A DNA stretch of 64,000 bases, taken from the NCBI RefSeq assembly GCF_000003195.3, contig NC_012875.2, forward strand, positions 11,870,174-11,934,173, written 5' to 3'. The first letter of the stretch is position 1. The number at the start of each line of letters is the position of its first letter. The stretch is from Sorghum bicolor (Eukaryota; Streptophyta; Magnoliopsida; Poales; Poaceae). The notes under the pieces were generated by a model. The model had not been told where the DNA came from. It worked only from the letters and a program-made list of their open reading frames with translations, and searched no databases. Of the stretch, positions 3,560-47,226 are shown piece by piece. Position numbers and translations under genes: made by a program.

Positions 3560-3966
3560 CATGCCCCCCAGTTTCGGAGTATGAAATCCTTAATGCTCCA
3601 AAATTCTCTGCATTAATGGCGCCTTTCTGTAGTTAATCTTCCCGATTTGGCAACTGATCATTAAATCCGAACAACCTTGGTTCGATTCTTTCGCAGACTC
3701 CTAGAATTTCTCAACCTCCCAAACCAGATAGCGGATATCCCTTCTTTATTCACCCATCGGCAATATGACCGTTGGAGGAGGCTGCCGATGGACCGACCAG
3801 GAAATCCCACAAAGTGAAATATCTCCAGATCATGACCGCTTTCTGTCAAATCGCCTGCACAATCCCTTGATTACCGTGCGAACAGTTACCATATCAACCT
3901 GAGTATCTTCGGATTTCACAGATGCGGCGATGAGATAAGTCAGATTTGCCCTTGCCTATTTTATCC

Positions 3967-3974
3967 TATAAATA
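3967..3974 (+). promoter_or_regulatory. TATA box of the antisense gene, Tat-1 copy 1
   Basis: CCTATAAATAGTTCC lies about 150 bases before the ATG at 4121. The same TCCTATAAATAG occurs in the same place in copy 2 (26835-26842, minus), so the promoter belongs to the family. Confidence 0.7.
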
Positions 3975-4120
3975 GTTCCTTCTTGGGTACTCCTTCTCCA
4001 TCGCATCATTCTACAACCCTAACTCTGATTTTCTGGCGGCGGCACTACTCGAGGGCCCCAAGAACTCCAACGAAGGCCTTTCTCCATCCCCAAAGTCTTC
4101 GATCGTCTTCCCTGCGAGGA

Positions 4121-7100
4121 GATGGCCATCAACTTTGCTGTTCCTAAGGCCAGTTCATCACCCCATCTCTCCTGTATTTTCACCGCACTCCTGTTCATTC
4201 GCAGTTCACCTTACTGAATACCTTTTTCTTTTTCCTTTTGTTCTTCTTTTTACCCCCCAAAAACCTTTAGGATCTATCCAATAAATTCGTTATCCCTACC
4301 GATCAACCACACCTCCAATGTCTTGGTCCGCTAGGGAACCCAGATCCTACCGATCTGATCAACGCAGAGACAAATAGAATCCCCTTTAGAGCTGAGAACT
4401 TCTCTCTAGATCTGTGGAAAGACGCCTTCCGTTCTTGGCCCAGTCCTACCAAGGGATGGAAGGATTGGTTCTTGAGAGTCAGCCATTCAAATGAGGTTCA
4501 GTGGGGCGAGTGAAAACTGGATCAATGCATCAGATTGTCCCTTGCCGATATGCATAAGAATGAGTCACTGCTGATTGCTGCGTCATACTTCTGGTCAGAC
4601 ACTCTCAATGCCTTTATTTTCGGCCATGGCCCTACTTCTCCCACCCTTGCCGATGTGCTTATGCTCACCGGCCTAGATGTATCCACTTCCGATAGTAGTC
4701 ACATATTTGACACCACACCTAGTGCTAAGGTGGAAACCCGCTTTATCAGCGGCTGGTCTGGATACATTCAGAAGTACCGTAGAACAGGGCCTGTTAACAT
4801 AAAGGAACAAACCACCTTTCTGAACATGTGGTTGGACAAATTTGTATTCTGCGGTCGATAGGCAGGACCAACCTCTATCTACCTATCGGCAGCATAGAGA
4901 TTAGCTAATGGTGGCCGATTTCCCCTCGGCCGATACCTGCTGGGCTCTGCCTATCATCTTCTCCACCAAGTAGCCAGGAAACTCCTGCTCGGTCAACCCA
5001 TCAGCAACTCAGGGGGTCCCTGGTGGTTCATCAACACATGGCTTAGCCTCCATATGCACAAGCGTCTTGAGTTCGACCTCTTTGCACAACGTTTCCCCAG
5101 GGATATAGCCGAGGATCATGAACTGGGTGAAGAAGAATTGGCAACTCGTCCTCCTCTGAACTTTGGTGAGGTTGCCATAGTTTTGCCTGGCACAGGGGGT
5201 AACGCAGATCAGGTTAGCCGATTCTTCCAGACTCTGTACGAGGGCCTGACCAGAGAACAATGAGCATGGATGCCTTATGAAGACCCAGACACCAGATTTC
5301 CTTTGGTCTTCCATCCCTTCAACGATGCTCTCAATAAGGATCATGATGTGATGATGGCACTTATCACTCCAAGGGCCATACCAGTAAACTTTTTCGGCAG
5401 TGGGAAGGCCTCCAACTAGACCTATGAATTCTACAACCCATCGGCACTAGCCCGTCAACTGGCTTTTGTTCAGCTACCGATTGCACTTTGTTATGCCGAT
5501 GTGATAAAACCCAGGGAAACCATCACTAGTCTTCTTGAGTGGACCAGAATAGCTCAACTGCCACCAAATGCCGATACAGATGCTGATTTATCAGATTGGA
5601 TCCCGGCCCTCTTCATCACTCAAGCATACAAACAATGGTGGGAAGAATGGAAAGAACACCTGTTCTGCAGATCGGCTCTTACGTACCGTGGCATGATTGA
5701 CCCTCAATACAAGGTCCCTGATAATACTCTAAGTATTTTTTAAACCGATGTTTCAATTTCTTCACTATCCTTTTCAATCGATAATCCCCTTCCTTCATCT
5801 CATGCAGGATGATAATACACCACCATCGGTCAGCAGGAGTGGTAAGCCGATCGCGCTTTCCCCGTCGGGTCCAATCTCTTCGATCGGCAACAATGCTCCC
5901 ACCTTGGCTGCTATAATGCATCGGGGTGTACGTCTCAAGAAAGTCAACACCAAGCGGACAAAGGCATCTCCATCGGTAGCCGCTTCTACTTTAGCACAGG
6001 CTTTCAAGGTAAATTTTCAAACTCTTTCACCCATACCGATTCTATTCTTACATCTGTTACACTTGTGCTCACAAATTTTCATTGTTGTAACAGCACACCG
6101 GTGCATCGGAAAGGACCAGAAGCACAAGTGCCGATGCCCCCCAGTCCATTCAGCCGAAGAGAAAAGGTGCCAAGAGTACCAGGTCAGAAGCAAAGCGTCA
6201 AAGAATAGCAACGCCTTCTCCACCCCCAGTATCTCCAATCCCAGTGGAATCTTCTCCCTCTTCTCCAGAAGTTTAGACACAGCAGATACCTTCTCTCAGC
6301 CACAAGAAGAACTTCACATAGAAGAACCCCAGCCAGAGGAATCTCAGCTAGAAGACACATTAGTTGACGTGCATGAGCAAACTGTCGATCCAGCAAGTTC
6401 AATTATAGCATCGGTAGTTTCCTCAATCCAAACAAGCACTGCTCCCCCACAAGGTAACATACTCTTTATGAAATCATTGCCGATGAGCCTATCTTTCCGT
6501 CTTATAATTACTTCTGTTGATCTTTCAGCTGACATAGTCCCATCGGCAACTCCAGCCGATCAGCCCGTGGTTCCATCGGCATCATCTAGTCAGAGGCGAG
6601 AAATTGCCCTGAAACAAGTAAGTTACCCAATCTCTATCTGTATCATTTATCAATACTTGACCACAGAATAACTTATTTTATTTCCTTTTCAGGAACAGGA
6701 CTCTCCTGACAGTTTGTTCTCCTTTGCCATCGATATCTCTGAAGATGAAGGCGAGGAGGCAAGTTCTTCTCGAGCAGTTGGAATTACATTGGCGGAAATC
6801 AGGGCAAGGTTGGAAGAATTATCGGCCCTCCTTCATCAAGACACTGCCCAATTGGTTGATGACTCCGATCCGGCCAAGGTCTTGTTCAGAACCCTCAGAG
6901 GCCAAATTCCTGCCGATGCCGAAGAAATCCTTTTTCAAGCTGCACATCTAGAGAGCCGTCAGCTGCAATATCAAAAGTCTTCCCAGCGTCTTGCCGACAG
7001 AGCTACTCAGGCTCAGCTTTCTGAGGAGATGATGAAAGTGAAGCTCCTTGCCGATGAGAAGCACAAGAACATCGGCATCTTGAAGTCCTCAGGAGATGCA

Positions 7101-7388
7101 CTAAAGCACAAGATCTCTGATCTATCAGCAAAAAGAGAAGCCCTGTTGGCAGAACTCAAGCAAATAGAAGAATCCTTATCCCAAGCTCAACAAGAGGAAA
7201 GCCAGCTGCCTGAGGCGATCAAACTTCTTGAACAAGAGCGAAATGTCCATGGCCGCAAAGCGCTGCAGATGAAGAAGAAGCTGAAGCCAGTGGAGGGCTC
7301 TGCCGATGATGACGTGAAAGAGATAGAAGAAGCCAACCAGATCCGTCTGCATGCCATATCGACGATCCAGGCGCTGTTGAACACGTGA
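4121..7388 (+). pseudogene. Antisense plant-mobile-domain gene of Tat-1 copy 1, broken
   Basis: This is the decayed counterpart of the open six-exon gene at 23400-26826. Exon 1 starts at 4121 (M-A-I-N-F). Exon 2 (4271-5728) encodes the plant mobile domain, and later exons lie near 5810-6008, 6096-6455, 6530-6617 and 6694-7388. Exon 2 has in-frame stops at 4511 (CGA to TGA), 4859 (TCG to TAG) and 4895 (to TAG), and the donor after exon 2 has changed from GT to CT. The last exon, an E/K/Q-rich helical segment, is still open (6714-7388). The gene runs opposite to gag-pol of its element, tail-to-tail with pol, and lies between pol and the 3' LTR. A single open frame seen at 5748-6671 merely reads through introns. 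Confidence 0.75.
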
Positions 7389-7438
7389 ACTCTTCATCGG
7401 CGGTGTTCTTTGCTTCTTCATTCTAACCATTTTGGTCT

Positions 7439-7528
7439 AGCCGATAGGACCATTATCAGCATCCGCTTAAAACATTAAGTCCGGTTTCAGACATAGTTTG
7501 ATCCAGCCGATAGGAATGTTATTGGCAT
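7439..7528. repeat. Paired inverted-repeat spacer motif, Tat-1 copy 1
   Basis: Two decayed copies of AGCCGATAGGANTGTTATCGGCA stand about 68 bases apart between the 3' ends of pol and the antisense gene. They correspond to the two intact hairpins at 23257-23277 and 23326-23346. Here several right arms have lost the CpG (ATCAGC, ATTGGC). Confidence 0.6.
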
Positions 7529-7536
7529 TTAAACTT

Positions 7537-10500
7537 CTATGCATCGACCCAGATGCTTGGGTAATACTTTTTCAAATATTTACCATTTAATGCCCTGGGG
7601 AACTCAACTCCTTCGAGAGTTTCCAAGATATAGGCGTTTCCAGAAGCCGACCGATTTACCCAATAGGGACCTTCCCAATTAGGAGACCACTTCCCGAATT
7701 TTGAACTTTTAGTTCCGATTGGTAAAATTAGTTTCCATACTAAATCTCCATCGGCAAACTCCTTAGGTTTTACCCTCTTATCATACCATCTGGCAACTCT
7801 CTTCTTATTCTCTTCTATACTTATCAAAGCCTTTAACCGATGCCCCGCTAGATCATCCAACTCGTCTATCATCAAAGTGGTATAATCATCGGCAGCCAAT
7901 CGGTCTTGAAAAGATAGTCGCCTAGACCCAGTCTTAATCTCCCAAGGTAGCACTGCATCATGCCCATACACCAATTGATAAGGTGAAACTTTGGTCGATC
8001 CATGACAAGCCATCCGATATGACCATAAAGCTTCATTCAACAATGTATGCCACCTTCTAGGGTTTTCTTCAATCTTTCGTTTAACAAGCTTGATAATTCC
8101 TTTGTTAGATGCCTCGGCCTGCCCATTAGCTTGAGCATAATAAGGAGAAGAATTCAACACTTTAATTCCCATACCGATTGCAAACTCGTCAAACTCCCCC
8201 GATGTAAACGTAGTACCCTGGTCGGTAGAAATCGTCTGAGGAATACCAAATCGGTAAATAATATGCTCCTTCACAAAATCAATCATATTGGCCGATGTAA
8301 CCTTCTTCAAAGGAATTGCTTCAACCCACTTGGTGAAATAATCAGTAGCAACCAAGATGAATTTGTGCCTTTTACTAGAAGGCGGATAAATCTGACCAAC
8401 TAGATCAATAGCCCATCCCCGGAACGGCCAAGGCTTAATAATGGGATTCATGGCCGATGCGGGCGCTCTTTGAACATTGCCAAACTTCTGACAACCTTGA
8501 CATCCCTTGAAATATTTAAAGCAATCTTCAAGTATGGTTGGCCAATAATACCCATTCCTCCTAATCATCCACTTCATCTTGAATGCCGTCTGATGTGCTC
8601 CACATACTCCTTCATGGATTTCTCCCATCAAACTTTTAGCTTCATCTTCACCCAAGCATTTGAGAAGAATTCCATCAATTGTTCGATAATACAATTCATC
8701 TCCGAGGAGCACATACTTGGTGGCTTGAAACCGAACACGTCTCTCGACTTTCTTGGATGGATCTTTCAAATAATCAATGATTTCTTTTCTCCAATCATCG
8801 GCACCAATTGCCGATATTGTATTCAACATGGGCTAGTATCCTGAGGCATGCTGAGCGAACCGATTGGCCTCCTCATTATGCAACCGAGGAACATGCTCTA
8901 ATCAGAAATCCTTGAATTCCTTTAATAGCTGCATGCTCCTTTCGTGATAAGTTATCAGGACCTCGCTGCGACATTCATAGCTTCCAGCCAGTTGGTTTAT
9001 AACCAGCATAGAATCCCCAAAGACTTCAACAACATCAGCATGAACTTCTCTTAATAACTCTAACCCTTTTATCAAAGCTTGATATTTGGCTTGATTATTT
9101 GTTGATGTGGCAACAATCGGCAAGGAAAACTCATACTTCCTTCCCCGAGGGGAAATTAGCACTATGCCGATTCCTGCCCCCCGGCCACACGTAGATCCAT
9201 CGAAGAAGAGTGTCCAAGGTACAATTTCCAAAGTTCCCACGGCTCCAAAATGTTGAGTCACAAAATCGGCCATAATCTGTCCCTTAACCGCTTTAGCCGA
9301 TTCGTAACGCAGATCGAATTCCGACAGTGCCAAAATCCACTTACCGATCCTACCACTCATAATCGGCATAGACAACATATAACGGACCACGTCATCTTTG
9401 CATATAATAGTGCATTCAGCCGATAACAAATAGTGCCTCAATTTAATACACGATAAATATAGACACAAACATAGCTTTTCAATGGCCGAATGCCTGGTCT
9501 CAGCATCAATTAATCTTCTACTTAAATAATAAATCACACGTTCCTTTCCTTCAAATTCTTGAATTAAAGCCGAACCGATGACCATCCCATCGGTAGACAA
9601 ATATAACCTGAAGGGCTTCCGTTGCTGAGGTGGAATCAGAACTGGAGGATTTACCAAATAATTCTTGATTTCATCTAAGGCCAATTGTTGCTCTTTCCCC
9701 AGACGAACTCTTGATCGGCTTTCAACTTAAGCAAAGGACTGAAAGCACGAATTTTACCAGACAAATTAGATATAAACCTCCTGATAAAATTTACCTTGCC
9801 GATCAAGGATTGGAGCTCAGTCTTATTGGTGGGAGCAACTATTTTGTTGATAGCATCAATGGATCTTCTGCTAATGTCAATCCCTCTCTGATGCACCATG
9901 AAACCAAGGAATTGGCCTGCCGATACACCAAATGCACACTTGTTGGGGTTCATCTTTAAACCATGCTTCCTCGTGCATTCCAACACTTTTCGCAAATCGG
10001 CAAGATGCCTTGCAAAATCTTCAGATTTGACCACCACATCATCAATATAATTTTCCACCAGCTTGCCGATGAACTCGTGAAAGATAAAATTCATGGCCCT
10101 TTGATAAGTAGCACCAGCATTTTTCAAGCCAAAGGTCATGACTATCCACTCAAACAGCCCAACATGACCAGGACACCTAAACGCTGTCTTTGAAATATCT
10201 TCCTCAGCCATAAATATTTGATTGTATCCTGCATTGCCATCCATAAAGCTGATGATACGATGTCCAGCCGCAGCATCAACTAGCAGATCGGCGACCGGCA
10301 TCGGGTAGCCATCCATCGGTGTAGCCTTATTGAGATTTCTGAAATCAATACAAACCCGAAGCTTTCCATTTTTCTTGTAGACCGAAACAACATTGGAAAT
10401 CCACTCGGCATACCGACACTGCCGAATAAATTTAGCTTCAATAAGTTTGGTTATTTCGGCCTTAATATCAGGAAGGATATTAGGATTACATCGGCGAGCT

Positions 10501-10769
10501 GGCTGCTGATATGGCCGAAATCCAGACTTGATAGGCAACCGATGTTCAAGAATTGATCGGTCTAAACCAGGCGTCTCAGTATAATCCCAAGCAAAGCAAT
10601 CTTTATATTCCTTTAACAAGGCGGTTAACTGCTACTTACACTTAGAATTCAACTTAGCACTAATAAAAGTAGGCCTAGGTTTATCACCACTACCTATATC
10701 TACTTCTACCAAATCATCGGCCGATGTGAATCCTTGGCCTAATTTTCCATCATCGGCGAACCTATCCAT
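7537..10769 (-). pseudogene. Pol of Tat-1 copy 1 (RT, RNase H, aRNase H, integrase), broken
   Basis: The reading runs leftward from an ATG at 10767-10769 that overlaps the gag-protease stop (TAATG). The RT part (10619-9675) retains the Y-I-D-D active site. RNase H and archaeal-type RNase H lie at 9684-8902 and integrase at 8829-7537, with its H-H-C-C zinc site and D-D-E core. Breaks are a stop near 10634 (CAA to TAG), a one-base deletion near 9690 that shifts RT against RNase H, and stops near 8900 (CGA to TGA) and 8831 (CAG to TAG). The integrase segment alone is open for 430 codons and keeps a Trp codon that is a stop in copy 2. Confidence 0.88.
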
Positions 10770-13480
10770 TAAAACTCCTCATCAGAACCGACTGCTTGGA
10801 TCGGTGGAATTTCATAATCGGCGACTTTGAGGAAATCCTTCTCCCAAATTTCTCCCGAGATGCACCTAGTCCTTTCATAAGTATCTGCCTCTGCTGATGC
10901 AATAACATAGGAAGAATCTCCCGGGACAATCTCAAACTTATCACCTACCCATTGTACCAAGCATTGGTGCATTGTAGATGGGATGCAACAATTGGCATGA
11001 ATCCAATCTCTCCCTAGGAGCAGATTATAGGCTCCTTTTCCACTAATCACAAAGAAAGTTGTCGGCAAGGTTTTGCTGCCGATGGTCAACTCGACATAGA
11101 CTGCCCCCTTCACTGGAGATACATTTCCTTCAAAGTCCTATAGAATCATATTGGTCTTGGTCAAATCCTGATCTCCTCTTCCAAGCTTCTGATACACTGC
11201 ATATGGCATGATGTTGATAGCAGCTCCACCATCAATTAAAATCTTGGTCATCGGCTGACCATCCACTCTCCCTTTGACAAACAAAGCCTTAAGATGCTGC
11301 CTTTCATTATCGGCAGGCTTTTCGAAGATGGCTGTCATCGGTTCCAAAGCCAACTGAGCTATCTGGTCGGAAAATTCTAACTCCTCATCATCACTAGATG
11401 GTGCCAAGAACTCCATCGGCAACATAAATACCATGTTAACATTTGCCGATGGCCCTTTCCCTTTAGGGTCTGATTGTTGCTGATCCCTAGATTGGCCAGA
11501 ATTCTCACCCTTGCTTAGCTCTTCTCGTCTCTCGCGTTGCAGTCTCCTCTTCTGTGTCCTGGTCAATCTCTCTGGACACCATGGGGGAAGTGGTGACTGC
11601 CTTGCCGACGGACGACGATGTTCCCTTGACTCCATCCGATGAGTATTAGCGTCCCTGCAAAATATGAACTCATCGAGAACTCGTGCATTAGCCATCTCCT
11701 CAAGTTCTTCTTGATTCCTGGGAAAATATCCAACACGACCACCAAGCCTATCGTGTACACTGAGTCTGCCCCCCAGTCGATCATGAACCGACGCTCTCCC
11801 CCTAATCGGCCCATTATATCGCCGATCGTCATCATGATGGCGCCGATCAGATCTGTCATACCGATCATAACCATTGCACTCAGGGCAATCTTCAACAGTG
11901 GGCAATTTAATGTCCTGCTCCCAGCAATGGATAAAGAACGGGCAGTTCCAGTGATCCTTGTGCCGATTCCACTCCCATCGGTGTCTTTCTTCTTCCTGAT
12001 GATAATCTTCTTGCTGGCGCCGATACCGATCTTCATGTTGCTGCCTAGTCTCCCGATGCCTTCTATGAGTTATCACAATACCGGATCGGGGAGCCCTTCC
12101 TGAATTGGATCCCTCCTAGATCAAACCCTTTCCTTTAGCATCGGCAGCAGTAATCTGGTGTTGAGGATCAACTGATGCATTTCTTTCAGCTGCTTCTGAC
12201 GTCAGCACCTTAGTTTTCCCCTTAGCGTCCAACATGTTTGTCGGAAAAGGGTGTTGATCAATCTTCTTCAGCTTCTGGGCTTTGGAACTATCAAATTTGA
12301 TTCTTCCAGATTCAATAGCCAATTGCAGCTGTTGCCTGAAAACGTTGCACTCGTTGGTGCTGTGAGAAGTTGCATTGTGCCACTTGCAATATTTCATCTT
12401 CTTTAATTCTTCAACCGATGGAATCACATGATTGGGTGACAGCTTGATATGGCCTTCTTGAAGTAGAAAGTCGAATATCCTATCGGCTTTGGTAATGTCA
12501 AACGCAAACTTCTCTGGCTCATTGTGCCCAAAAGGACAAGACATCGGCTTCTTATTTTTCACCCATTCTGCCAGGCCGATGACTAGTTCCTCATCAGAAT
12601 CCGAGCTTGCTGCTTCATCCACGGACGATACCTTTTTATTCCATGCTCTTTTGGGTTCAAAAGGTCTAATATCTTGATCAGAAATTCTCTGTACCAAGTG
12701 ACTTAAGCTTTCAAACTCCTGAGAAGCATACTTGTCCCTGATGTGCGGCAACAAACCCTAGAAAGCCAAATCGGCTAGCTCTTGATTGTCCAAAACCAGA
12801 CTATAACATTTATTTTTGACCTCCCGTATTCTTTGCACAAAACTTTCAACCGATTCATCGTTGCGTTGCTTCAGTTTAACCAAATCGGTGATCTTCTTCT
12901 CATGGACTCTAGAAAAGAAGTATTTGTGGAACTGCTTCTCTAGATCGGCCCAAGTAATCACTGAGTTGGGAGGTAATGATATAAACCAAGTGAAAGCCGA
13001 TCCAGATAATGATGACGAGAACAAGCGATTTGGTGAAATCTGTCCAGAAAACTTGGTGAAATCTGGCACCTTGTACCGATTTGGAAGTGGGATTAAATCA
13101 TATGCAGGAGGATACGGTGTCCGATAAGAATAAGTGTTTACTTTGGGTTTTATCCCAAATTGGTCTCTCATTACTTCAGCAATCTTATCGGTCCAATAAG
13201 CATCGGCATCCAGCCGATGGGGTGGTTGCGGATCTGGCACCTGCTGATATACTTCCATGTGTCTATGCGGTGCGTGATCTGCATAGAACATTGGGTTAAT
13301 CATTTGGCCACCAATCTGCTGACCACCAAACTGCTGACCACCGAGATTCATCGGCTGGTTGACCAACCCCTGATTCTGGAACCCAGGGTAGATCTGGCCT
13401 TGTTGAAACACTATAGCCTGATGATTCTATTGGGGCATTTGTGGAAAGACTTGCTGCCCAGTCCATCCACTGTCAGATTA
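10769..13480 (-). pseudogene. Gag-protease of Tat-1 copy 1, truncated and broken
   Basis: Retrotransposon-gag similarity (13127-12758), a Q/G-rich region and an aspartyl-protease segment with a D-G-G-A motif (about 11240-11225) are all recognisable against copy 2. Stops interrupt the frame near 12756 (CAG to TAG), 12114 (CAG to TAG) and 11125. About 25 codons are deleted in the gag domain near 13045 compared with copy 2. The amino terminus is missing because the element breaks at about 13480. Confidence 0.82.
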
Positions 13481-14626: not shown

Positions 14627-15626
14627 ATTGGCAGTCATTATAGACCAATTATAAACTGCCAACTTGATCCAAAAGGAGAAGAAGCAATCATATTATATAC
14701 ACACATGCATTTTATTACTAACAAGTTCCACTTGTACCATAGTGATTATATTTTGTAGGAATTATAGTCCAACAACTGAAAATGTGCCATACAATGAAGA
14801 AAGCGCAAAGTACCAAAAGACGTATTCAGAAATGCGCAAACCAAGAAAATAGAGAAAGGCCCAACCAACGCAGAACTGGGCCTGATCATAACCACGGGAG
14901 AGATCCAGGCCCAGAGCCAAACCGACCACACGAAGGCGGTGGTCAGGGGGACCCACCTAGGGTGCGGCCGCACGCTAGTGCTGGCGCACCCCTAGATGTG
15001 GCAAACCAGGCCCATCTTTCTCAGGCAGTTGCGTGCCGCCATGCATAGGACGGTTTCACCTACTACCAAATTTAGATGCGACGAACCGTCCTAGTTCCAC
15101 TATAAAAAGAGAGGCACTCCCCCCTTTTCAACACACACATCATTTGGAGTCAATTTACCTCACACCTCTCACTTGTATCTTTAGTCTAGATTAGTAGTAG
15201 AGCAAGGCAAGAGCTAGCAAGGAGAGCTTGTCTCCTTGGAAGAAATGATCTTCTTGGTATGAATAATATTCAATCTTCTTCCATGAGCAAGTTCTATTCA
15301 TCTTTATATGATTATGCATATGAACTAGAGTACGGTTATGTTCTTATCATGATCATAGTATATGAACTAGTTCTTAGTTCTTGTGCTATGTTCTTGATAT
15401 GTTCATCATTGTTCTTCATTGTTCATCAGATTAGTATGATTAGGATTAGAATTAGGAATGGGATGATGGTTCACTGTACTGTGATGGTTGCTCTTAGCCT
15501 GGCCTGTCACTCCGAAGGGGTGGGGCCCGCGGGGGTTAGGAGTTGTTTCCAATTACGTGAACATGGTGTTTAGGTATGCGGGAATCAGTGGATGTGCGGG
15601 TATCTTTCGGGTAGAGGGGTAGGTGG
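14627..15626 (+). repeat. Ath-A 5' LTR, segment 1
   Basis: The LTR starts TATTGGCAGTC, a decayed form of the TGTTGGCAGTC that starts the 3' LTR at 55031. It contains the TATA box at 15101. An open frame of 104 codons (15259-15573) also exists in the 3' LTR but I do not call it a gene. The segment ends at the Tat-1 insertion, with TSD GGTGG at 15622-15626. Confidence 0.9.
15101..15109 (+). promoter_or_regulatory. TATA box of the Ath-A 5' LTR
   Basis: CCACTATAAAAAGAGAGGC is a good plant TATA box. The 3' LTR has TACAAAAAG at the same place, a T-to-C change. Confidence 0.7.
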
Positions 15627-16325
15627 TGTTGACACCGTTTTTGGGCACGTGTCTAGGATGGCAGGATAAGGTGGCAGTGCGATGTTTACAAAGCGGGTTG
15701 CCGATGAGGATGGTTGCCGATGAGGGAGAAGTTGAATGTGACTAAGTCCACAGGCAGTAATATGGTGCCGATGGCTAGATAAGGAAGTCTGCCGATGACT
15801 ATGGCAAAGGATCTGCCGATGATGCAAAGGAGGAGTCTGGAAGCTGCCGGTCGTTATGTGGAGGAGTTTCGGTTTGTCACGAGGGATAGTTTTGTTATTT
15901 CCTTAATTATTTGCATTGTTTTGTATACGGATTCCGTGTAATTTGGAATTCGAATTCTAATCGTGTCTGGTTGTAGCTCTTTGAGCAGGGTATAAATGTA
16001 GACCCTAGGGCCTTGTAATAAAAAATCAATCAATAAAATCAAACACACGTTTTTACTCATATTCCAGCATCTACTTTTCGACGACTTCGTCATACTTTTT
16101 TCCTTTTTGTTACGAGTTCTTAGGAATTCGTCGACTTAAGCTCGGCGTGTTCTCAAGTTCCGCGTGAATACCTCTTAGCCGTGACATCCGGGCGCATCGC
16201 TGTTGTCAGGACTAAAGTATTCGAGTTATCACCTTTGCCGATAGCAAGGTCAAATCGGCTGGCACGCCTTAACGTTTGAATCGGGTATTAGCCCTTTGTG
16301 TTTGCAGATCAGTTTTGCATCAACA
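15627..16325 (+). repeat. 5' LTR of Tat-1 copy 2
   Basis: Starts TGTTGACACC and ends GCATCAACA. The TATA box TATAAATG is at 15991. Seven GCCGAT/ATCGGC motifs fall within these 699 bases. Confidence 0.95.
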
Positions 16326-16332
16326 GATCTTT

Positions 16333-16350
16333 TGGCACGCGCAGTGGGAC
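16333..16350 (+). other. Primer-binding site of Tat-1 copy 2
   Basis: TGGCACGCGCAGTGGGAC begins seven bases after the LTR. It starts with TGG as expected for pairing with a tRNA 3'-CCA. I do not assign the tRNA. Confidence 0.7.
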
Positions 16351-16365
16351 AGATTCAAGATCAAC

Positions 16366-19300
16366 ATGTCGATCTCTGACCTCGATCAGGAGAACGTCAT
16401 CCCCGTGACGGAGGCCAACCTCAAGGATGAGCAGAAGCAAGCTATTGCCCAAGCCATGGAAGAGTTCAAGCAGCAATGCCTGAGGTCTTTCAGCATAAAC
16501 AGGAGCGGCGAAGTGGTCCAGAAAGATGCACTGCCGGCACCACGGCAGGTTACCTTTGACGCCAATCCTGGCAAGCTTCAAGATATGGTTGACAACGCCA
16601 TCAATCGAGCGTTGATTAACCAAGCTGGTGTACTCTCTAATACGGTTTTCAATGCCGTGGCAAGAACTTTCAAGGAAGGACAAATCCCACCAGATTATGT
16701 GGGCCCCTCCCATCATCAGCCAACAGCACCAGAAGTCACGGCTCCATCGGCTGCCTTGACGACTGCAAGTGCACAATCTGCCGTCCCTCCAAGTACATCG
16801 GGGACTACTGGTGCACTATCCATGCCGATGACAACCAACCCACAAATTTCAGTTGGGCAGCATAAACTGACAACAGATATGTTGGCATCGGCAATGTCAG
16901 GGTTGACTCTTCCTCCAAACTGGTGGGGTTACGGTATGCCTCCAGAGTTGACACCGGGAACATCACAAATTACTGACACGAGGGGCAAAACTCCTATGAC
17001 ATCGGCACCTCCCAATGCGCCGGTGAACCAGAGTCCTCGGTATACCACAACTACTACTGCAAGGCCTCACACTGGAAATCCTCAAGATTCAATGTTCTAG
17101 ATGCCCAACGCATCAGCAGAGTCAATGCTGATGCAACAGAGGTCTATGGCTCAGTCAGGGTATGTCAATTCAACGGCTGTACCCAATTACCAATCATCGG
17201 CAGCACCTATGCCGATGAACGCTAATAATGGATGGCTTGGACAGCAAGCCTTTCCACAATCGCCCCAGCAGAGTAATCAGACTACAGGGTTCCAGCAAGG
17301 GCAGGTCTATCCCGGGTTCCAGGGTCAGGGGATTCCCAACCAGCCAATGAATTTTGGACAGCAACTCGGAGGACAGCCAATCGGTGGACAGCAGTTTGGT
17401 GGTCCGCAGATTGGAGGACAGGGGATCAATACAATGTTCCGTGCAGATCATGTCCCGAACAGACACGTGGAGGTTCGCCACCAAGTGCCAGATCCGCAGC
17501 CGCCTCATCGGCAAGATGCCGATGCATATTGGGCCGATAAGATTGCTGAAGTAATGAGGGAACAATTTGGGATAAAACCCAAAGTCAACACGTACTCTTA
17601 TCGGACACCGTATCCTCCCGCATATGATTTGATCCCGCTTCCACATCGGTATAAGGTACCAGATTTTACCAAGTTTTCCGGGCAAGATGATACGTCAACC
17701 ATGGAGCATGTCAACAGGTTCATCATTCAATGTGGAGAGGCTGGTAACAGGGACGAATTGAGGGTTCGTCTATTTTCATCATCATTGTCTGGATCGGCCT
17801 TTACTTGGTTCATATCGTTACCTCCCAACTCAGTAATTACTTGGGCCGATCTAGAGAAGCAATTCCACAAATACTTCTTCTCAGGGGTTCATGAGAAGAA
17901 GATCACCGACTTGGTCAAGTTGAGGCAACGTAATGATGAGTCGGTTGAGGGTTTTGTGCAAAGGATACGAGAAGTTAAGAATAAATGCTACAGTCTGGTT
18001 CTAGATGATCGGCAGCTAGCCGATTTGGCTTCCCAGGGTTTATTGCCACACATCAGGGATAAATATGCTTCTCAGGAGTTTGAAAGCCTAAGTCATTTGG
18101 TGTAGAGGATTTCTGATCAAGACATCAAGCCTTTCGAGCCCAAAAGAGCATGGAACAAGAAAGTATCGTTTGTTGATGAAGCAACGAGCTCCGATTCTGA
18201 TGAGGAACCAGTCATCGGCTTGGCAGAGTGGGTCCAAAACAAGAAGCCGATGTCTTGTCCTTTTGGGTAGAAAGAACCAGAAAAGTTCGCTTTCGACACC
18301 GCTAAGGCCGATAAGATATTTGATTTTCTACTCCAGGAAGGCCAGATCAAGCTGTCTCCTAATCACGTGATCCCATCAACTGAGGAGTTGAAGAGGATGA
18401 GATATTACAAGTGGCATAATGCAACTTCTCATGACACTAATGAATGTAAAGTGTTCAGACAACAGCTGCAATCGGCAATAGAATCCGGGAGGATCAAGTT
18501 TGACAGTTCCAAGACCCAGAAGCCGATGAAGATAGACCAGCATCCTTTCCCTACAAACATGTTAGATGCCAAGGGGAAGGCCAAGGTCTTAACATCGGAA
18601 ACGGCCGAGAAAAGTGCATCGGTAGATCCTCAGCATCAAGTTACTACTGCCGATGCAAAATGTAAGGGCTTAGTCCAGGAAGGAACCAGTTCGGGTAGGA
18701 CCCCTCGGTCTGGTATTGTTATAACTCATAGAAGACCTCGAGAGAGCTGGCAGCAACGGGAAGATCGGTATCGGCGCCAGCAAGAAGATTACCGCCAGCA
18801 AGAAGAAAGACGCCGACAGGAGTGGAATCGACATAGAGATCATTGGAACTGCCCGTTCTTCATCCATTGTTGGGAGGAAAATATCAAGCTTCCCACTGTC
18901 AGAGACTGTCCTGAGTGCAATGGTTATGATCGGTACGACAGGACTGATCGGCGTTATCATGATGACAATCGGCGATTTAATGGGCCGATCAGAGGAAGAG
19001 CATCAGTTCATGATCGGCTGGGGAGCAGGCTCAGCGTGCACGATAGGCTTGGCAATCGTGTCCGATATTTTCCCAGAAACCAGGAAGAACTCGAGGAGAT
19101 GGCTAATGCACGAGTTCTCGATGACTTCATATTTTGCAGGGATGCTAACACGCATCGGACAGAGTCAAGGGAGAATCGACGCCTAGCAGTAAGGCAGAAG
19201 CCACTTCCTCCATGGTGTCCGGAAGGGTTGACTAAGACACAGAAAAGGAGATTGCAGCGTGAAAGGCAAGAGGAGCTAAACAAGGGCAAGAACTCTGGAA

Positions 19301-20013
19301 GTCAGCAGCCATCAGACACCAAGAGGGAAGGTCCATCGGCGGGAGTTAACATGGTTTTTATGTTGCCGATGGAGTTTCTTGCACCATCCAGTGATGATGA
19401 GTTGGAATTTTCTGGTCAGATAGCTCAGCTAGCTCTGGACCCGATGACAGCTATCTTTGAGAAACCTGCCGATGACGAGAGACAACATCTTAAGGCTCTA
19501 TTCGTCAAAGGGAGGGTTGATGGGCAACCAATGACCAAGATCCTAGTTGATGGTGGAGCTGCTATTAATATTATGCCTTATGCAGTATATCGGAAGCTTG
19601 GGAAAGGGGATCAGGATTTGACCAAGACCGATATGATGCTCAAAGACTTTGAAGGAAACGTGTCTCCAGTTAAAGGAGCAATATGTGTGGAGTTGACCAT
19701 CGGTAGCAAAACCTTGCCGACAACTTTCTTCGTGATCAGTGGAAAGGGTGCTTACAACTTATTGTTGGGAAGAGATTGGATTCATGCTAATTGTTGCATC
19801 CCGTCTACAATGCACCAATGCTTGGTTCAGTGGATAGGTGACAAGATTGAGATTGTCCTGGGAGATTCTTCTTATGTCATTGCATCGGCGGAGGCGGATA
19901 CCTATGAGAGGACCAAGTGCATTTCAGGAGAAGTTTGGGAGAAAGATTTTCTCAAAGTTGCCGATTACGAGATTCCACCGATCCAAGCAGTCGGTTCTGA
20001 CGACGGTTTTTAA
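16366..20013 (+). pseudogene. Gag-protease of Tat-1 copy 2, three nonsense mutations
   Basis: The frame opens at M-S-I-S-D-L-D (16366), just after the PBS. It would encode an amino-terminal region, a P/T/Q/G-rich linker, a retrotransposon-gag domain (about 17690-18060, with F-T-W-F and W-x-x-L-x-x-x-F motifs), a short Cys/His-type segment (W-H-N-A-T-S-H-x-x-N-E-C, about 18410), an R/D/H-rich stretch and an aspartyl protease with L-V-D-G-G-A-A (about 19545) and the later hydrophobic L-L-L-G-R-D-W. In-frame TAG codons occur at 17098, 18103 and 18268. Comparison with copy 1 shows sense codons at the last two. The stop TAA (20011-20013) overlaps the pol ATG by one base. Confidence 0.88.
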
Positions 20014-23000
20014 TGGATAGATTCGCCGATGATGGAAAATTAGGCCAGGGATTCACATCGGCCGATGATTTGGTAGAGGTAGATATAGGTAGTGGTGATA
20101 AGCCTAGACCTACTTTTATTAGTGCTAAATTAAATCCTGAGTGTAAACAACGATTAACCGATTTATTAACGGAATATAAAGATTGCTTTGCTTGGGATTA
20201 TACCGAGATGCCTGGTTTAGACCGATCAATTGTTGAACATCAGTTACCCATCAAGTCTGGATTTCGTCCACATCAGCAGCCAGCTCGCCGATGTAATCCT
20301 AATATTCTACTTGATATTAAGGCCGAAATCACCAGACTCATTGAAGCTAAGTTTATTCGGCAGTGTCGGTATGCCGAATGGATTTCCAATGTTGTTCCGG
20401 TTTACAAGAAAAACGGGAAGCTTCGGGTGTGCATTGATTTCAGGAATCTCAATAAAGCTACGCCGATGGATGGATACCCAATGCCTGTCGCCGATCTACT
20501 GATTGATGCTGCGGCTGGTCATCAGGTCATCAGCTTCATGGATGGTAATGCAGGTTACAATCAAATATTCATGGCGGGGGAGGATATTCCAAAAACCGCG
20601 TTCAGGTGTCCTGGTCATGTTGGGCTATTTGAATGGATAGTCATGACTTTTGGATTGAAGAATGCTGGTGCTACCTATCAAAGGGCTATGAATTTTATAT
20701 TTCATGAGTTCATCGGCAAGTTCGTGGAGATTTATATCGATGATGTGGTGGTTAAGTCTGGAGATTTCTCAAAGCATCTTGCCGATTTACAAAAAGTGTT
20801 AGAGTGCACAAGGATGCATGGATTGAAGATGAATCCCAACAAGTGTGCATTTGGTGTATTAGCAAGGCAGTTTCTTGGTTTCATGGTACATCAGAGGGGT
20901 ATTGAAATTAGTCGAAGATCCATTGATGCCATCAATAAAATAGTGGCCCCTACCAACAAAACCGAGCTACAATCCTTGATCGGCAAAGTAAATTTTATCA
21001 GGAGATTTATATCGAATTTGTCTGGTAGGATTCGTGCTTTCGGCCCTCTTCTTAAATTGAAAGCCGATCAAGAGTTTATTTGGGGAGAAGAGCAGCAGTT
21101 GGCTCTGGATGAAATCAAGAAGTATCTAGTAAATCCTCCAGTTCTAGTTCCACCTCAACAAGGGAAGCCCTTCAGATTGTATTTATCTACCGATGGATCG
21201 GTTATCGGTTCAGCTTTAGTTCAAGAATTTGAAGGGAAAGAAAGAGTAATTTATTATTTAAGTAGGAGGTTGATTGATGCTGAAACCAGGTATTCGGCCA
21301 TTGAGAAACTATGCTTATGCTTATATTTTTCATGTATCAAGCTGAGACATTACCTGTTATCGGCCGAATGCACTGTTGTTTGCAAAGATGACGTGGTCCG
21401 ATACATGCTATCTATGCCGATTATGAGTGGTAGGATCGGTAAATGGATTTTAGCGCTGTCGGAGTTCGATTTGCGTTACGAATCGGCTAAGGCAGTCAAA
21501 GGGCAGATTATGGCCGATTTTGTGACTCAGCATTGCGGTTTAGTGGAAACCTTGGAAATTGTACCCTGGACGCTCTTCTTTGATGGATCCACCTGTGACC
21601 GGGGGGCAGGAATCGGCATTATATTAGTTTCCCCTAAGGGGAGGAAGTATGAGTTTTCCTTGCCGATTGTTGCCACATCAACAAATAATCAGGCTGAATA
21701 TCAAGCTCTGATCAAGGGATTGGAGTTGTTAAGAGAAGTTCGTGCTGATGCTGTTGAAATATTCGGGGATTCTATGTTGGTTATAAATCAATTGGCCGGA
21801 AGCTATGAATGCCGAAGTGAAGTTCTCATAACTTATTTCGAGAGAAGTATGCAACTGTTAAAGGAATTCAAGGATTTCCGATTGGAGTATGTTCCCCGAT
21901 TGCATAATGAAGACGCTAATCGGTTAGCTCAGCATGCCTCGGGATATCAGCCAATGATTAACGCGACATCGGCAGTCGGTGCCGGTGATTGGAGGAAAGA
22001 AATTATTGATTATCTAAAAGATCCATCTAAAAAAGTTGAAAGACGGGTTCGATTTCAAGCAACCAAGTATGTGCTCCTTGAAAATGAATTGTATTATCGA
22101 ACTATCGACGGAATTCTTCTCCGATGCTTGGGTGATGATGAAGCTAGAAGTTTGATGGGGGAAATCCATGAAGGAGTGTGTGGAGCGCATCAGTCAGCTT
22201 TTAAGATGAAGTGGATGATTCGAAGGAATGGATATTTTTGGCCAACCATACTTGAAGATTGTTTTAAATATTTCAAGGGATGTCAAGGTTGTCAAAAGTT
22301 TGGTAATATCCAGAGAGCACCCGCATCGGCTATGAATCCTATAATAAAGCCTTGGCCGTTCCGGGGATGGGCCATCGATCTGATCGGCCAGATTTATCCA
22401 TCATCTAGCAAAGGGCATAAGTTCATTCTAGTTGCCACTGACTATTTCACTAAGTGGGTTGAAGCTATTCCTTTGAAGAAAGTCACATCGGCCAATATGA
22501 TTGATTTTGTGAAGGAGCATATTATTTACCGATTTGGGATTCCCCAAACGATTACTACCGATCAGGGCACCATGTTCACATCGGGGGAGTTCGATGAATT
22601 CGCAATCGGTATGGGAATTAAAGTGTTGAATTCTTCTCCTTATTATGTTCAAGCCAATGGGCAGGCCGAAGCGTCTAACAAAGGAATTATCAAGCTTATT
22701 AAACGAAAGATTGAAGAAAATCCTAAGCGGTGACATACATTATTAAATGAAGCATTGTGGTCTTATCGGATGGCTTGTCATGGATCGACCAAGGTAGCAC
22801 CATATCAATTGGTGTATGGACATGATGCAGTGTTGCCTTGGGAAATTAAGGCTGGATCTAGGCGATTATCTTTTCAAGATCAATTAACTTCCGATGGTTA
22901 TGCCACTTTGATGACCGATGAATTGGACGATCTAGCAGGGCATCGGTTAAAAGCTTTAATGAGTATGGAAGAAAATAAGAAGAGAGTTGCTAGATGGTAT

Positions 23001-23246
23001 GATAAGAAAGTGAAGGCTAAAGAGTTTGCCGATGGGGATTTGGTATGGAAATTAATTTTACCAATTGGGACTAAAAGTTCGAAGTTTGGAAAGTGGTCTC
23101 CTAATTGGGAGGGTCCTTATCGGATAAGTCGATCGGCTCCTGGTAATGCCTACATTCTAGAAACCCTCGAAGGAATTGAATTTCCCAGAGCATTAAACGG
23201 CAAATATTTAAAGAAGTACTACCCCAGTATATGGGTCGATGCATAG
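20013..23246 (+). pseudogene. Pol of Tat-1 copy 2 (RT, RNase H, aRNase H, integrase), one nonsense codon
   Basis: The frame starts at the ATG of TAATG and would give 1077 codons. RT motifs include [17 protein letters not shown] and the catalytic Y-I-D-D (residues 241-244). A Ty3-type RNase H follows, then a second archaeal-type RNase H starting F-F-D-G-S (Asp near 524), with Q-A-E-Y and G-D-S motifs. This tandem arrangement is the mark of the Tat lineage. Integrase has the zinc-binding H-H-C-C segment and catalytic D (about 788), D (about 849) and E (about 886). A TGA at 22731-22733 replaces the Trp codon kept in copy 1 and removes the integrase C-terminal part. Otherwise the frame is intact. 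Confidence 0.93.
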
Positions 23247-23399
23247 AAGTTTAGGTGCCGATAACACTCCTATCGGCTGGATCCAAATGCTTGGGGACAA
23301 GACTTGGTGTTTCAAAAGTTTAGGTGCCGATAACAGTCCTATCGGCTAAACTAAGAGCTGAGGAAGCAGGAAAGCGCAGATACAATGCCGATGGAAACT
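23247..23399. repeat. Intergenic paired hairpins between pol and the antisense gene, Tat-1 copy 2
   Basis: Two units of AAGTTTAGGTGCCGATAACA followed by TCCTATCGGCT are 69 bases apart. In each, GCCGATA (23257, 23326) faces TATCGGC (23271, 23340), giving 7-base arms around a 7-base loop. The spacer separates the tail-to-tail 3' ends of pol and the antisense gene. It may serve as a terminator or polyadenylation zone for one or both genes, or as a cluster of the family hexamer. Confidence 0.65.
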
Positions 23400-26300
23400 C
23401 TATGTGTTAAGCAGCGTCTGGATTGCCGATATAGCGCGTAGCCGAATTTGGTTGGCTGCTTCTATCTCCTTGATGTCATCATCGGCAGAACCTTCTATCG
23501 GCTTCAGCTTCTTCTTCAGTTGGAGTGCTTTGCGACCATGAGCATTTCGCTCGCGCTCAAGAAGCCTGATGGTCTCTGGCAATTGGCTCTCCTCCTGTTG
23601 GGCTTGGGATAGAGCGTTCTCTACTTCCTTGAGCCCTGCCAACAGGGACTCTTTTCTTGCCGATAGATCGGATATCTTCTGCTTCAGCGCGTCTCCAGAA
23701 GATCTCAGGATACCGATGTTTTTGTGCTTCTCATCGGTCAAAAGCTTCTCTTTCCTCATTTCATCGGAGAGTTGAGTCTGAGCGGCTCTATCGGCAAGCC
23801 GCCGAGAAGCTCTTTGGTACTGCAGCTGGCGACTCTCCAGATGAGCGGCTTGGAACAGGATTTCTTCAACATCGGCTGGGATTTGGCCTCTGAGAGTTCT
23901 GAACAGGGTCTTGGTAGGGTCGGAATCATCGACCAATTGCGCTGTGTCCTGGTGAAGGAGAGCTGACAATTCTTCCAGTCTGACCCTGACCTCGGCCGAT
24001 GTGATGCCGACCGTCTGAGAAGTGCTTGCTTCTTCACCTTCTTCTTCAGAGAGATCGATGGCGAAGGAGAACAGGCTGTCGGGAGAATCTTGTTCCTGGG
24101 AGAGAAAGCAAAATTAGCTCATACTTAGAGAATCGGCAAATAGTGCTAACGGTAAACGGTGACTTACTTGCTTCAAGGCGATCTCTTGTCTTTGACTGAG
24201 AAGTGCTGACGGAGCTGCAGGCTGATCGGCCAAAGATGCCGATGGAGCTACAGGTTGATCGGCTGAGATTACCGATGGAATGATATCAACTGAAAGAAGA
24301 CAAAAGGAGTTATGAAACTAAATAAGAATAAGTTCATCGGTAGTGATATTGTTAAAGTATGTTACCTAGAGGAGGGACAACGGTTGTCTGAATCGGGAGA
24401 ACTGCCGATGGTATAACTGGACCCACCGGGCCAGTTGTTTGTTCACCCGTGTCAGCTGATGTATCTTCTGTTTGAGGTTCTTCCTGCTGGAGTTCTTCCA
24501 TCTGTGGTGCTTCCTGCATTGGATGGGGAGATGGTGCTTGCTGTGTCTGGACTCCTGGAGAAGAAGGAGAGGACTCCACCGGAATTGGAGATACCGGAGG
24601 AGGAGGGGGACTTGCCACTCTCTGGCGCTTTGTTCCAGCCTTAGCACCTTTGGTGTCCTTTCTCTTTGGCCGGCTGGACTGGGGGGCATCGGTACTTTGG
24701 CGCTTGGCTTTTGCCGATGCACCAGTTTGCTGCAACAACGAAAAGGGTTTTATAAGCACAGATGTAGCCGATATAAAGATGGTCAGTGTAAAAGAAAAAG
24801 GATGTGACAAATTGCCTGCGCCAGAGTGGAAGCAGCTACCGTAGGTGATGTTTGAGCTCTCTTGGTGGTGACTTTCCTGAGGCGCACACCCCGATGCACG
24901 ACGGAAGCCAGAGTGGGAGCGTTGTGGCCGATTGAGGAGATCGGGCCTGATGGAAACAAGTCGATTGGCTTGCCACTCCTGCTAACCGATGGGGGGATGT
25001 TGTCGACCTGCAAAAAGAATACAAGGGTGAGCTACCGGTGGAAATAGTATTGAAAAATGAAACATCGGTTTAAAATACTTACAGTGTCATCAGGGACTTC
25101 GTATTCGGGGTCGATCATGCCGCGGTATGAGAGGGCCGATCTGCATAATAGATGCTCTTTCCATTCTGCCCACCATAGCTTGTATGCCTGAGTAATAAAG
25201 GCAGCTGGAACCCATTCTGACAGATCTACGTCTGTGTTGGCATTTGGTGGTAGCTGGGCTACTCGAATCCATTCAAGAAAGTTGGTGATCGGTTCTCTGG
25301 GTTTTATCACATCGGCATAAGGAAGTGCAATCGGCAACTGGCCGAAAGCTAGCTGACGGGCTAATGCCGATGGATTGTAAAATTCGTAAGTTTGAGGGGA
25401 GGTTTTTGTGCTACCAAAGAAATTCACTGGTATGGCTCTGGGAGTTACAATTGCCATCATCACCTCATTATCCCTGTCGAGAGCTTCATCAAATGGATTG
25501 AAGGTTAGAGGGAGCATGCTGTCTGGGTCATCATAAGCCAGCCATGGTCGTTCATCTCTGGCCAATCCCTCATACGGAGTCTGGAAGAATCGACCGATTT
25601 GATCTGGATTACTCCCTGAACCAGGTAGAACTACGGCAGCTTCGCCAAAGTTCAGGGGGGCACGTGTTGCCGATTCCTCTTCGCCCAACACATGATTTTC
25701 GGCTATATCTCTTGGGAAATGCTGTGTGAACAAGTTGAAATCAAGGCGCTTATGCAAGTGCAGGTTGAGCCACATGTTAATAAACCACCAGGGACCTCCC
25801 AAGTTGCTGATAGACTGACCAAGCAGGAGTTTCTGGGCTACCTGATGGAGAAGATGGTAGGCAGCGCCAAGCAGGTATCGGCCGAGAGGAAATTGGCCAC
25901 CGTTAGCCAGTCTCTCTGCTGCCGATAGATAGACAGAAGTCGGTCCTGCCGATCGACCACAGAATACAAACTTGTCTAGCCACATGTTCAGAAAGGTGGT
26001 TTGTTCCTTTATGGTGACAGGCCCCTTCCCACGGTACTTCTGAATATACCCCGACCAACCGCCGATAGCGCGAGTCTCCACTTTGGCACTAGGAGCGGTA
26101 TCAAAGAAGTGGGTGCTATCGGCAGAAGAGACATCTAGACCAGTGAGCATAGCTACATCGGCAAGAGTGGGAGAAACAGGGCCGTGGCCAAAGACGAAAG
26201 CATTAAGAGTATCTGACCAAAAATAAGATGCAGCTATCAACAGTGACTCGTTCTTGTGCATATCGGCAATAGATAGCCTGATGCATTGGGCAAGCTTCCT

Positions 26301-26826
26301 TTCACCCCACTGGACTTCAATCGAATTGCTGACTCTTAAGAACCAGTCTTTCCACCCTACAGTAGGGCTGGGCCAAGAGCGAAAGGTGTCTTTCCACAGA
26401 TCTAAAGAAAAAGTTTCGGCTCTAAAGGGAATCCTGTTGGTTTCTGCATTGATAAGGTCAGTTGGATCTGGATCCCCTAGTGGGCCGAGACATTGGAGGT
26501 GTGGTTGATCGGTGGGGATGACAATTTTGTTGGATAACTCCTAGTGTTTTGGGGAATAAAAATACAAAGAAAAAAGGAAAAGGAAAATGTTCAGTAAAAT
26601 GAATTGCGAGTAAACAGGGATATGAAGAAAAGTACAGAGGACGGGGTGGAGATTTGACCTCAGGGACGACGAACCCGACGGCCATCTTGCTGCGAAGGAA
26701 GCGTTTGAAGGCGCCGGAGTTGGTGAAGAGGGGTACTTGTCGGAGACCTTGGGAGTTTTTGGTGGCGCCGCCGCTGGAAAAATAAAGTTGGGTAGTAGAA
26801 TGGTGTGATGGGGAAGGAGTACTCAA
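23400..26826 (-). CDS. Antisense plant-mobile-domain (PMD) protein of Tat-1, six exons
   Basis: I reconstruct exons on the minus strand at 26826-26659, 26540-25083, 25007-24816, 24729-24366, 24289-24168 and 24095-23400. Their lengths sum to 3000 bases with all phases matching, giving 999 residues and a TAG at 23400-23402. Introns are GT-AG except the third, whose donor reads CAG/GCAATT (GC-AG). Exon 2 (about residues 57-542) resembles the plant mobile domain: F-R-S-W-P, W-K-D-W-F, F-G-H-G-P, T-L-A-D-V-A-M-L-T-G-L, W-W-x-E-W-K-x-H-L. Exon 4 is basic and P/Q/E-rich, possibly a nuclear signal (P-K-R-K-D). Exon 6 is E/K/Q/L-rich and probably coiled coil. A translation start at 26685 is also possible. 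PMD proteins are known from plant transposons and from MAIL1-type silencing regulators. The function here is unknown. Confidence 0.8.
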
Positions 26827-26834
26827 GAAGGAAC

Positions 26835-26842
26835 TATTTATA
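26835..26842 (-). promoter_or_regulatory. TATA box of the antisense gene, Tat-1 copy 2
   Basis: The minus strand reads TCCTATAAATAGTTCC immediately upstream of the first ATG (26826) and about 150 bases upstream of the second possible ATG (26685). It is conserved in copy 1 at 3967. If this is the true promoter, the start at 26685 would leave a normal 5' leader. Confidence 0.7.
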
Positions 26843-27310
26843 GGACAAGATGGGCAAGGGCAAATCCGACTTATCTCTTTGCCGCATCCGAGAAATCTGA
26901 GGGTACTCAGGTGGATATGGTAACTGTTCGCACGGTAATCCAGGGATTGTGCAGGTGATTTGACGGGAAGCGGTCATTATCTGAAGATATTTTACTGTGC
27001 GAGATCTCCTGGTCGGTCCATCGGCGATATTCTATAACGGTCATATTGCCGATGGGCGGATAGAGGGGAAGTAACCGTTTTTGCGAATATCCTGGTCAGA
27101 ACATCGGCAGATCTTTGTAACGATATTGTTGCCGATGTACGACTGAGAAAAATGCCCGTTTAGGAAGTTGGGGATTTCGAGGAATCTGCGGAGGATTAGG
27201 ATCAGAGTTGTCCAGATTGAGGTTGTCGGTTACCAGATTAGGAGCATTAATTGCGGGAGAAGGCATCATTACTGCAGAGAATTTCGGAGCATTAATAGTT
27301 TTATACTCCG

Positions 27311-27325
27311 AAACTGGGGGGCATG
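27311..27325 (+). other. Polypurine tract of Tat-1 copy 2
   Basis: AAACTGGGGGGCATG abuts the 3' LTR. The same tract is next to the LTR of copy 1 on the other strand. The span 26843-27310 between the antisense promoter and the PPT has no gene but carries four family hexamers. Confidence 0.85.
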
Positions 27326-28024
27326 TGTTGACACCGTTTTTGGGCACGTTTCTAGGATGGCAGGATAAGGTGGCAGTGCGATGTTTACAAAGCGGGTTGC
27401 CGATGAGGATGGTTGCCGATGAGGGAGAAGTTGAATGTGACTAAGTCCACAGGAAGTAATATGGTGCCGATGGCTAGATAAGGAAGTCTGCCGATGACTA
27501 TGGCAAAGGATCTGCCGATGATGCAAAGGAGGAGTCTGGAAGCTGCCGGTCGTTATGTGGAGGAGTTTCGGTTTGTCACGAGGGATAGTTTTGTTATTTC
27601 CTTAATTATTTGCATCGTTTTGTATACGGATTCCGTGTAATTTGGAATTCGAATTCTAATCGTGTCTGGTTGTAGCTCTTTGAGCAGGGTATAAATGTAG
27701 ACCCTAGGGCCTTGTAATAAAAAATCAATCAATAAAATCAAACACACGTTTTTACTCATATTCCAGCATCTACTTTTCGACGACTTCGTCATACTTTTTT
27801 CCTTTTTGTTACGAGTTCTTAGGAATTCGTCGACTTAAGCTCGGCGTGTTCTCAAGTTCCGCGTGAATACCTCTTAGCCGTGACATCCGGGCGCATCGCT
27901 GTTGTCAGGACTAAAGTATTCGAGTTATCACCTTTGCCGATAGCAAGGTCAAATCGGCTGGCACGCCTTAACATTTGAATCGGGTATTAGCCCTTTGTGT
28001 TTGCAGATCAGTTTTGCATCAACA
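27326..28024 (+). repeat. 3' LTR of Tat-1 copy 2
   Basis: 699 bases, same length as the 5' LTR. Differences seen by eye: GTGTCTAGG/GTTTCTAGG, CAGGCAG/CAGGAAG, GCATTG/GCATCG, AACGTT/AACATT. TATAAATG is at 27690. Confidence 0.95.
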
Positions 28025-36985: not shown

Positions 36986-37272
36986 ATTGTTGACTCTCTG
37001 GCATATGTGTCTTCTTGTTTTTGAAAAGATCTTTCCAGTTAAAGTTGACGTGACGAGACCTCCTGACGGGGTGTCAGATGGATGCATGAAAAATTGCGCC
37101 TGGCAACTGTGCAGCCGCCCTTTGCATGGTTTGAGAAAAAGAAACCATCAATTGGTACAAAAACTCCGCCGCATTAATTGTCTATAATCATTGTAAACCG
37201 AAACGCCGCATCCGCCGCATGGCCCGCCCACTTCCCGAGAATACGGGAAGTGGGAGAGGTGGAGTTGCGGGT

Positions 37273-47178: not shown

Positions 47179-47207
47179 CTTGTTCGCCGGAAAAGTTGCA
47201 CGCACAC

Positions 47208-47225: not shown

Positions 47226-47226
47226 C

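Follow-up and report, generated by a model that had tools for sequence, protein, structure and literature searches.

A candidate self-recognition word dispersed through a Tat-type retrotransposon of sorghum

Why should a retrotransposon repeat one six-letter word through its genes, its introns and its long terminal repeats (LTRs) alike? The question is raised by element A, a Sorghum bicolor LTR retrotransposon at positions 15627-28024 of a 64,000-nucleotide stretch of the genome (NC_012875.2, 11,870,174 to 11,934,173, forward strand; hereafter the window). The word is the hexamer ATCGGC, or GCCGAT on the opposite strand. An original prediction, made from the letters alone, put its number at about 100 by eye against about 6 expected. 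It took the word for a family-specific binding site, whose enrichment should survive control for dinucleotides and codon use and be absent from unrelated elements and host sequence. The exact count is 101 (56 GCCGAT and 45 ATCGGC) against 5.4 expected from an order-1 Markov model (z 41), which places the word first among all hexamers. Across 60 sequences simulated from the element at order 1, z did not exceed 6.1 for any hexamer, and the word itself occurred 12 times at most.

The two orientations are balanced (56:45, p = 0.32), on which ground a strand-specific RNA signal was rejected. As the prediction had it, no class of sequence is spared: words are found in LTRs, gag, pol, antisense exons, introns and spacers. 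Their density amounts to 10 per kb in the LTRs (7 words in each), 7.4 per kb over the span of the gag-pol open reading frames (ORFs; 51 in 6,917 bp), 8.7 per kb in the antisense exons (25 in 2,866 bp) and 6.3 per kb in the region upstream of the antisense gene (4 in 636 bp), while the 153-bp spacer at 23247-23399 holds five. The antisense introns contain 2 words in 423 bp, a small number within approximate edges, corresponding to 4.7 per kb versus about 0.4 per kb expected. The poorest stretches are the C-terminal integrase ORF (2 words in 513 bp) and one 50-bp piece with none. Tests at nine periods showed nothing clear in the way of helical or nucleosomal phasing, and the words are spaced nearly at random (coefficient of variation 1.09).

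Permuting synonymous codons in eight ORFs of A, so as to keep both protein and codon usage, left about 14 words where 72 are observed. With 300 shuffles per ORF, six of the eight ORFs stood above every shuffle and the remaining two equalled the maximum. Enrichment of the word is independent of codon use and dinucleotides, and mutational or codon bias was rejected as its cause on the strength of the Markov and codon controls. The drop upon codon shuffling shows that synonymous choices are used to accommodate the word in gag, pol and the antisense gene.

Preservation of the word was assessed in element B (2912..13344, minus strand), a relative of A with an ORF for a plant mobile domain (PMD) protein, which was identified by homology, independently of the word. 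It contains 75 words against 4.0 expected. The two elements are 69-91% identical per 500-column block, save one short, poorly aligned block at 40%. In well-aligned surroundings, 52 of 77 sites of A are intact in B where local identity predicts 25 (p 4e-10); lifting the flank filter gives 57 intact, 29 altered and 15 in gaps. Other CpG hexamers of A are kept at 30% in the same alignment, and identity by position peaks at the core bases of the word. Within word sites, 70 of 92 CpGs are kept, compared to 153 of 339 elsewhere (Fisher p 1.4e-7), and TG or CA stands in place of CpG in 18 of 92 versus 138 of 339 (Fisher p 1.4e-4). Since CpGs in word sites outlast other CpGs, a CpG-rich background was rejected as the cause. 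Three further copies concur on site retention (33/38, 31/36 and 32/37); two LTR comparisons (5/7 and 1/2 sites kept) involve too few sites to inform. The word thus seems to be maintained by selection.

The bases around and within the word point in the direction of a protein's preference. The core ATCGGC is preceded by C in 50% of sites and followed by A in 55%, and the extended form CATCGGCA/TGCCGATG is present 34 times in A, as the original prediction had noticed. Of the 18 single-base variants, ATCGGT alone shows strong enrichment (6.1 fold in A, 8.2 fold in B). All others reach 2.5 fold at most, the deamination products ATTGGC and ATCAGC lying at 1.2-1.9. Together, variant profile and flank bias look like the sequence preference of a protein, unlike mutational drift.

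Among the sequences sampled, the word is restricted to A's family. Copy density was determined in A, B and a diverged LTR of the same group (51555..52183, plus strand, 6 words), all found without using the word, and in four stretches picked by word position. The latter contain 9.3, 8.0, 9.1 and 2.9 words per kb, the last (L038) being interrupted by other sequence. Across 111,258 bp from the 30 best-scoring other PMD loci the word turns up 27 times, and this near-absence led us to reject it as a general feature of PMD loci. Four further PMD regions of 9.9 kb each, dissimilar to the window, have counts of 1, 3, 1 and 1. Counts are similarly low in 24 loci of a Tat family encoding the TRP28 domain (17 words in 76,896 bp) and in six other TRP28 loci (0-2 each). 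Three 5-kb copia stretches have 3, 3 and 9 words, and the word is outside the top five hexamers listed for each. Between 28 and 64 kb of the window there are 23 words versus 13 expected, 6 of which fall within the related LTR at 51555..52183. The enrichment is therefore absent where the original prediction required it to be. A search for relatives in viral contigs found none. A whole-word literature search with four 7- or 8-letter forms, with subscription papers and preprints mostly outside its reach, returned no link between word and retrotransposons, matching titles being bacterial or concerned with motif software. In the whole genome (709 Mb), the 8-letter form TGCCGATG/CATCGGCA occurs 129,594 times compared to 8,734 for the reversed control, about 15 times as often; word counts for the entire genome may thus bear a visible trace of A's retrotransposon group.

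Element A is 12.4 kb long. Its ends, placed as in the original prediction, read TGTTGA...TCAACA and are flanked by a 5-bp target site duplication, GGTGG (left 15622..15626, right 28025-28029, unstranded, read at the junctions). The LTRs, on the plus strand at 15627..16325 and 27326..28024, measure 699 bp each, carry 7 words each and are 99.4% identical. In the 5' LTR, five GCCGAT lie inside the first 200 bp (15700, 15716, 15767, 15791 and 15815) and two words near the end (16237 and 16254). ORFs for gag, protease, reverse transcriptase (RT), RNase H (RH), a second RNase H-like domain and integrase (IN), with 51 words, extend over 16330..23246 on the plus strand. Several features are those of Tat-type (OTA) Ty3/gypsy elements: TG...CA LTRs with a 5-bp duplication, and gag-pol in Ty3/gypsy order with RT-RH ahead of IN; an additional RNase H (RVT_3, residues 527-646) between RT_RNaseH and integrase, as judged from domain order; and an extra antisense ORF between pol and the 3' LTR (about 23400-26685, minus strand). 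PF04195 (TRP28), the mark of the Retand lineage, was not found in the three antisense ORFs of A scanned, where PMD is present instead. The element sits inside an older repeat (14628-15626 and 28024-28473), a second copy of which, about 94% identical, lies at 55033-56486.

Pol and the antisense gene are separated by the spacer at 23247..23399 (unstranded, five words), which includes an imperfect 32-bp direct repeat (23247-23347) with two inversely oriented words per copy, hinting on a small scale that local duplication can propagate words. The antisense gene is predicted to be spliced. On the minus strand, its last exon, coiled-coil-like by eye, occupies 23400..24096 (the left edge is the ORF end, the splice site is predicted); middle exons and introns, with a basic stretch seen by eye, span 24097..25082 within approximate boundaries; the PMD exon lies at 25083..26541; and a first coding exon with the start codon is predicted from sequence at 26660..26685. 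A TATA-like box for this gene is found at 26835..26842 (minus strand), some 150 bp upstream of the predicted start codon, and four words (27020, 27048, 27103 and 27131; 27020..27136, unstranded) lie upstream of it.

The PMD match (PF10536) scores 59 bits against a curated cut-off of 34.9 (E 6e-16). PF10536 is listed at E up to 10 for 44 of 44 aligned proteins, a listing that covers 25 of 35 families; named relatives come from Miscanthus, Urochloa and rice. In structural terms, the predicted model aligns over most of its length with DNA-bound VANC21 (9lnj), the anti-silencing protein of an Arabidopsis VANDAL transposon; a Foldseek search gave no significant match. Neither the protein sequence nor its profile retrieved anything meaningful from the PDB by sequence search. 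DUF1985, the family to which VANC belongs by sequence, did not appear in the window's PMD protein at E up to 10, PMD being the sole family listed after filters that drop most weak matches. A search for a paper on the VANC21 structure, subscription papers and preprints being mostly outside its reach, found none. Going by the model, PMD and VANC may be distant relatives, a shared protein module being as possible as convergence.

At the level of sequence, these data support the view that the word behaves like a binding site on double-stranded DNA that is specific to the family and under selection. We propose that a DNA-binding protein encoded by the element recognises ATCGGC (in its extended form about CATCGGCA, ATCGGT being tolerated). 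Most likely this is the antisense PMD protein, to whose binding of the word the word statistics and the modelled fold lend indirect support. The protein would be made from its own promoter and bind ATCGGC across family copies. Selection would have filled the whole element, on both strands, with the word, enabling the protein to tell family DNA from host DNA and to coat the former. The most likely effect of coating, on the analogy of VANC21, would be to counter DNA methylation and silencing of the family copies. The four words upstream of the antisense TATA-like box and the five at the start of the 5' LTR could also let the protein control its own gene and gag-pol. Taken as a whole, from self-recognition site to anti-silencing outcome, this chain is the best explanation we can offer, and we consider it reasonably probable. 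The binding-site part of the original prediction is supported; its further claim, that an unrelated element had evolved the same strategy, is perhaps wrong, given that the fold match hints at kinship between PMD and VANC.

Other readings of the same word have to be set against this one. An element-encoded protein, PMD or integrase, might read it to other ends: to keep cDNA in the nucleus or protect it, to tether new integrations to the family's own copies, or to control copy number. With words spread evenly along the element, coating of DNA or cDNA is as plausible a use as action on chromatin; the closest structural match, however, is an anti-silencing protein, and we regard these purposes as rather unlikely. 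Were the word instead bound by a host protein, a transcription factor or a chromatin protein, that the element recruits, the clusters in the first 200 bp of the LTR and upstream of the antisense TATA-like box would be well placed. Such a transcription factor would not need some 7-9 words per kb across gag, pol and antisense exons, though, and the window outside A's group is near background (23 versus 13 in 36 kb), which makes a recruited host factor improbable.

A host silencing factor could equally profit from so reliable a family label. In that event the element would gain from losing the word, yet the sites outlast neighbouring sequence, and the idea has very little to recommend it. Just as implausible is an artefact, whether of composition, of codon usage or of an ancestral repeat passed on neutrally. 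A few words do lie within short repeats (23247-23347), but the Markov and codon controls, the over-conservation of sites and a variant profile with a single tolerated change strongly disfavour it. Should self-recognition with anti-silencing be correct, a DNA-recognition code runs through the protein-coding genes of a mobile element; it would explain how a silencing-resistance protein singles out the numerous copies of its own family against the background of the host genome.

A second word was found in a third Tat-type element of the window, element C (about 36600-47700), which has an antisense Transposase_28 (PF04195) ORF. Here the leading hexamer is CGACCA/TGGTCG, present 33 times versus 6.4 expected, and 343 times in 77 kb over the 24 loci of this TRP28 family, partly in tandem arrays. 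Codon shuffling gave graded results: the RT-RH-IN ORF has 12 words against 2.85, a value reached by 0 of 500 shuffles; two ORFs show a weaker excess (5 against 1.4, 5/500; 4 against 0.9, 3/500); gag-protease is not convincing (8 against 5.0, 41/500) and the last ORF has no excess (1 against 0.86). In the TRP28 antisense region, sites were kept in 92 of 108 comparisons versus 49% of other hexamers, a figure built on 3-6 sites per copy across 24 copies and hence on non-independent comparisons. One word per family is suggested by these sequences, not proven. The structure model of TRP28 had a mean pLDDT of 37.5, too low for use. Loci related to C, such as L061, combine CGACCA tandem arrays with CCGAGC, and a tandem array with a period near 70 bp is common to window positions 1-441 and 36602-36984, in CGACCA-rich stretches. 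Elsewhere, at least L033 among the four 9.9-kb PMD regions is a Mu-like transposon, as judged by eye from its ORFs; it has a PMD match. Clusters of GGCGCCGAG, in both orientations, lie toward both sides in L033 (about 285-480 and 9290-9400) and in L034 (about 9450-9610); this is possibly another word for another PMD protein.

Extended to grass Tat elements generally, the picture would be that an antisense DNA-binding protein (PMD or TRP28) reads a family word carpeting the element, the demand for the word bending codon choice in gag and pol; VANC and PMD would be two branches of one ancient self-recognition and anti-silencing module, and the arms race would be visible in genome-scale word counts. 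We put this forward tentatively, as a possibility on the doubtful side.

How does element A compare with known systems? For Tat elements, a large group of plant retrotransposons, the role of the antisense ORFs is described as unknown (PMC7264820, PMC11963269). An antisense TRP28 (PF04195) domain is present in 97% of Retand clusters (PMC11963269), and the antisense ORFs of Retand and Grande encode TRP28 and gene23, whereas A encodes a PMD protein and bears its word across the whole element (PMC11963269, PMC7264820). For one Tat antisense ORF, the present analysis proposes a concrete candidate ligand, CATCGGCA, along with VANC21 as a candidate structural relative. A's protein shares its domain family with the PMD proteins of Ty3/gypsy elements and with the host proteins MAIN and MAIL1; a DNA word, 'DOWN', has been linked to genes that need MAIN/MAIL1 (PMC7156037, PMC8616336). 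Proteins of this domain encoded by transposable elements were earlier proposed as a possible counter-silencing strategy (PMC8616336). Host MAIN/MAIL1, in contrast, silence transposable elements, and the available parts of the two papers describe no element-wide carpet of words (PMC7156037, PMC8616336).

The closest parallel is offered by VANC21 and VANC6 of Arabidopsis VANDAL. As appears to be the case in A, an element-encoded protein goes together with a dense, family-specific short word, and sister families have other words. The 9-base word bound by VANC21 is concentrated in VANC21's own family, where the protein brings about loss of DNA methylation (PMC5735166, PMC10398659), and the predicted PMD fold aligns with the DNA-bound structure of VANC21. 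The differences are as follows. VANDAL is a Mu-like DNA transposon and A an LTR retrotransposon; VANC is a DUF1985 protein by sequence and A's protein a PMD protein. VANC targets mainly tandem repeats of non-coding DNA in a single orientation (PMC5735166), while A's word is dispersed on both strands, coding DNA being about as dense as the rest. Anti-silencing is established for VANDAL; A's likeness to it comes from sequence and a predicted model. By this analogy, the best explanation of element A is a VANC-kind system in a different transposon class, new as a variant, with ATCGGC as candidate ligand. If that is true, the VANC strategy reaches from DNA transposons to LTR retrotransposons.
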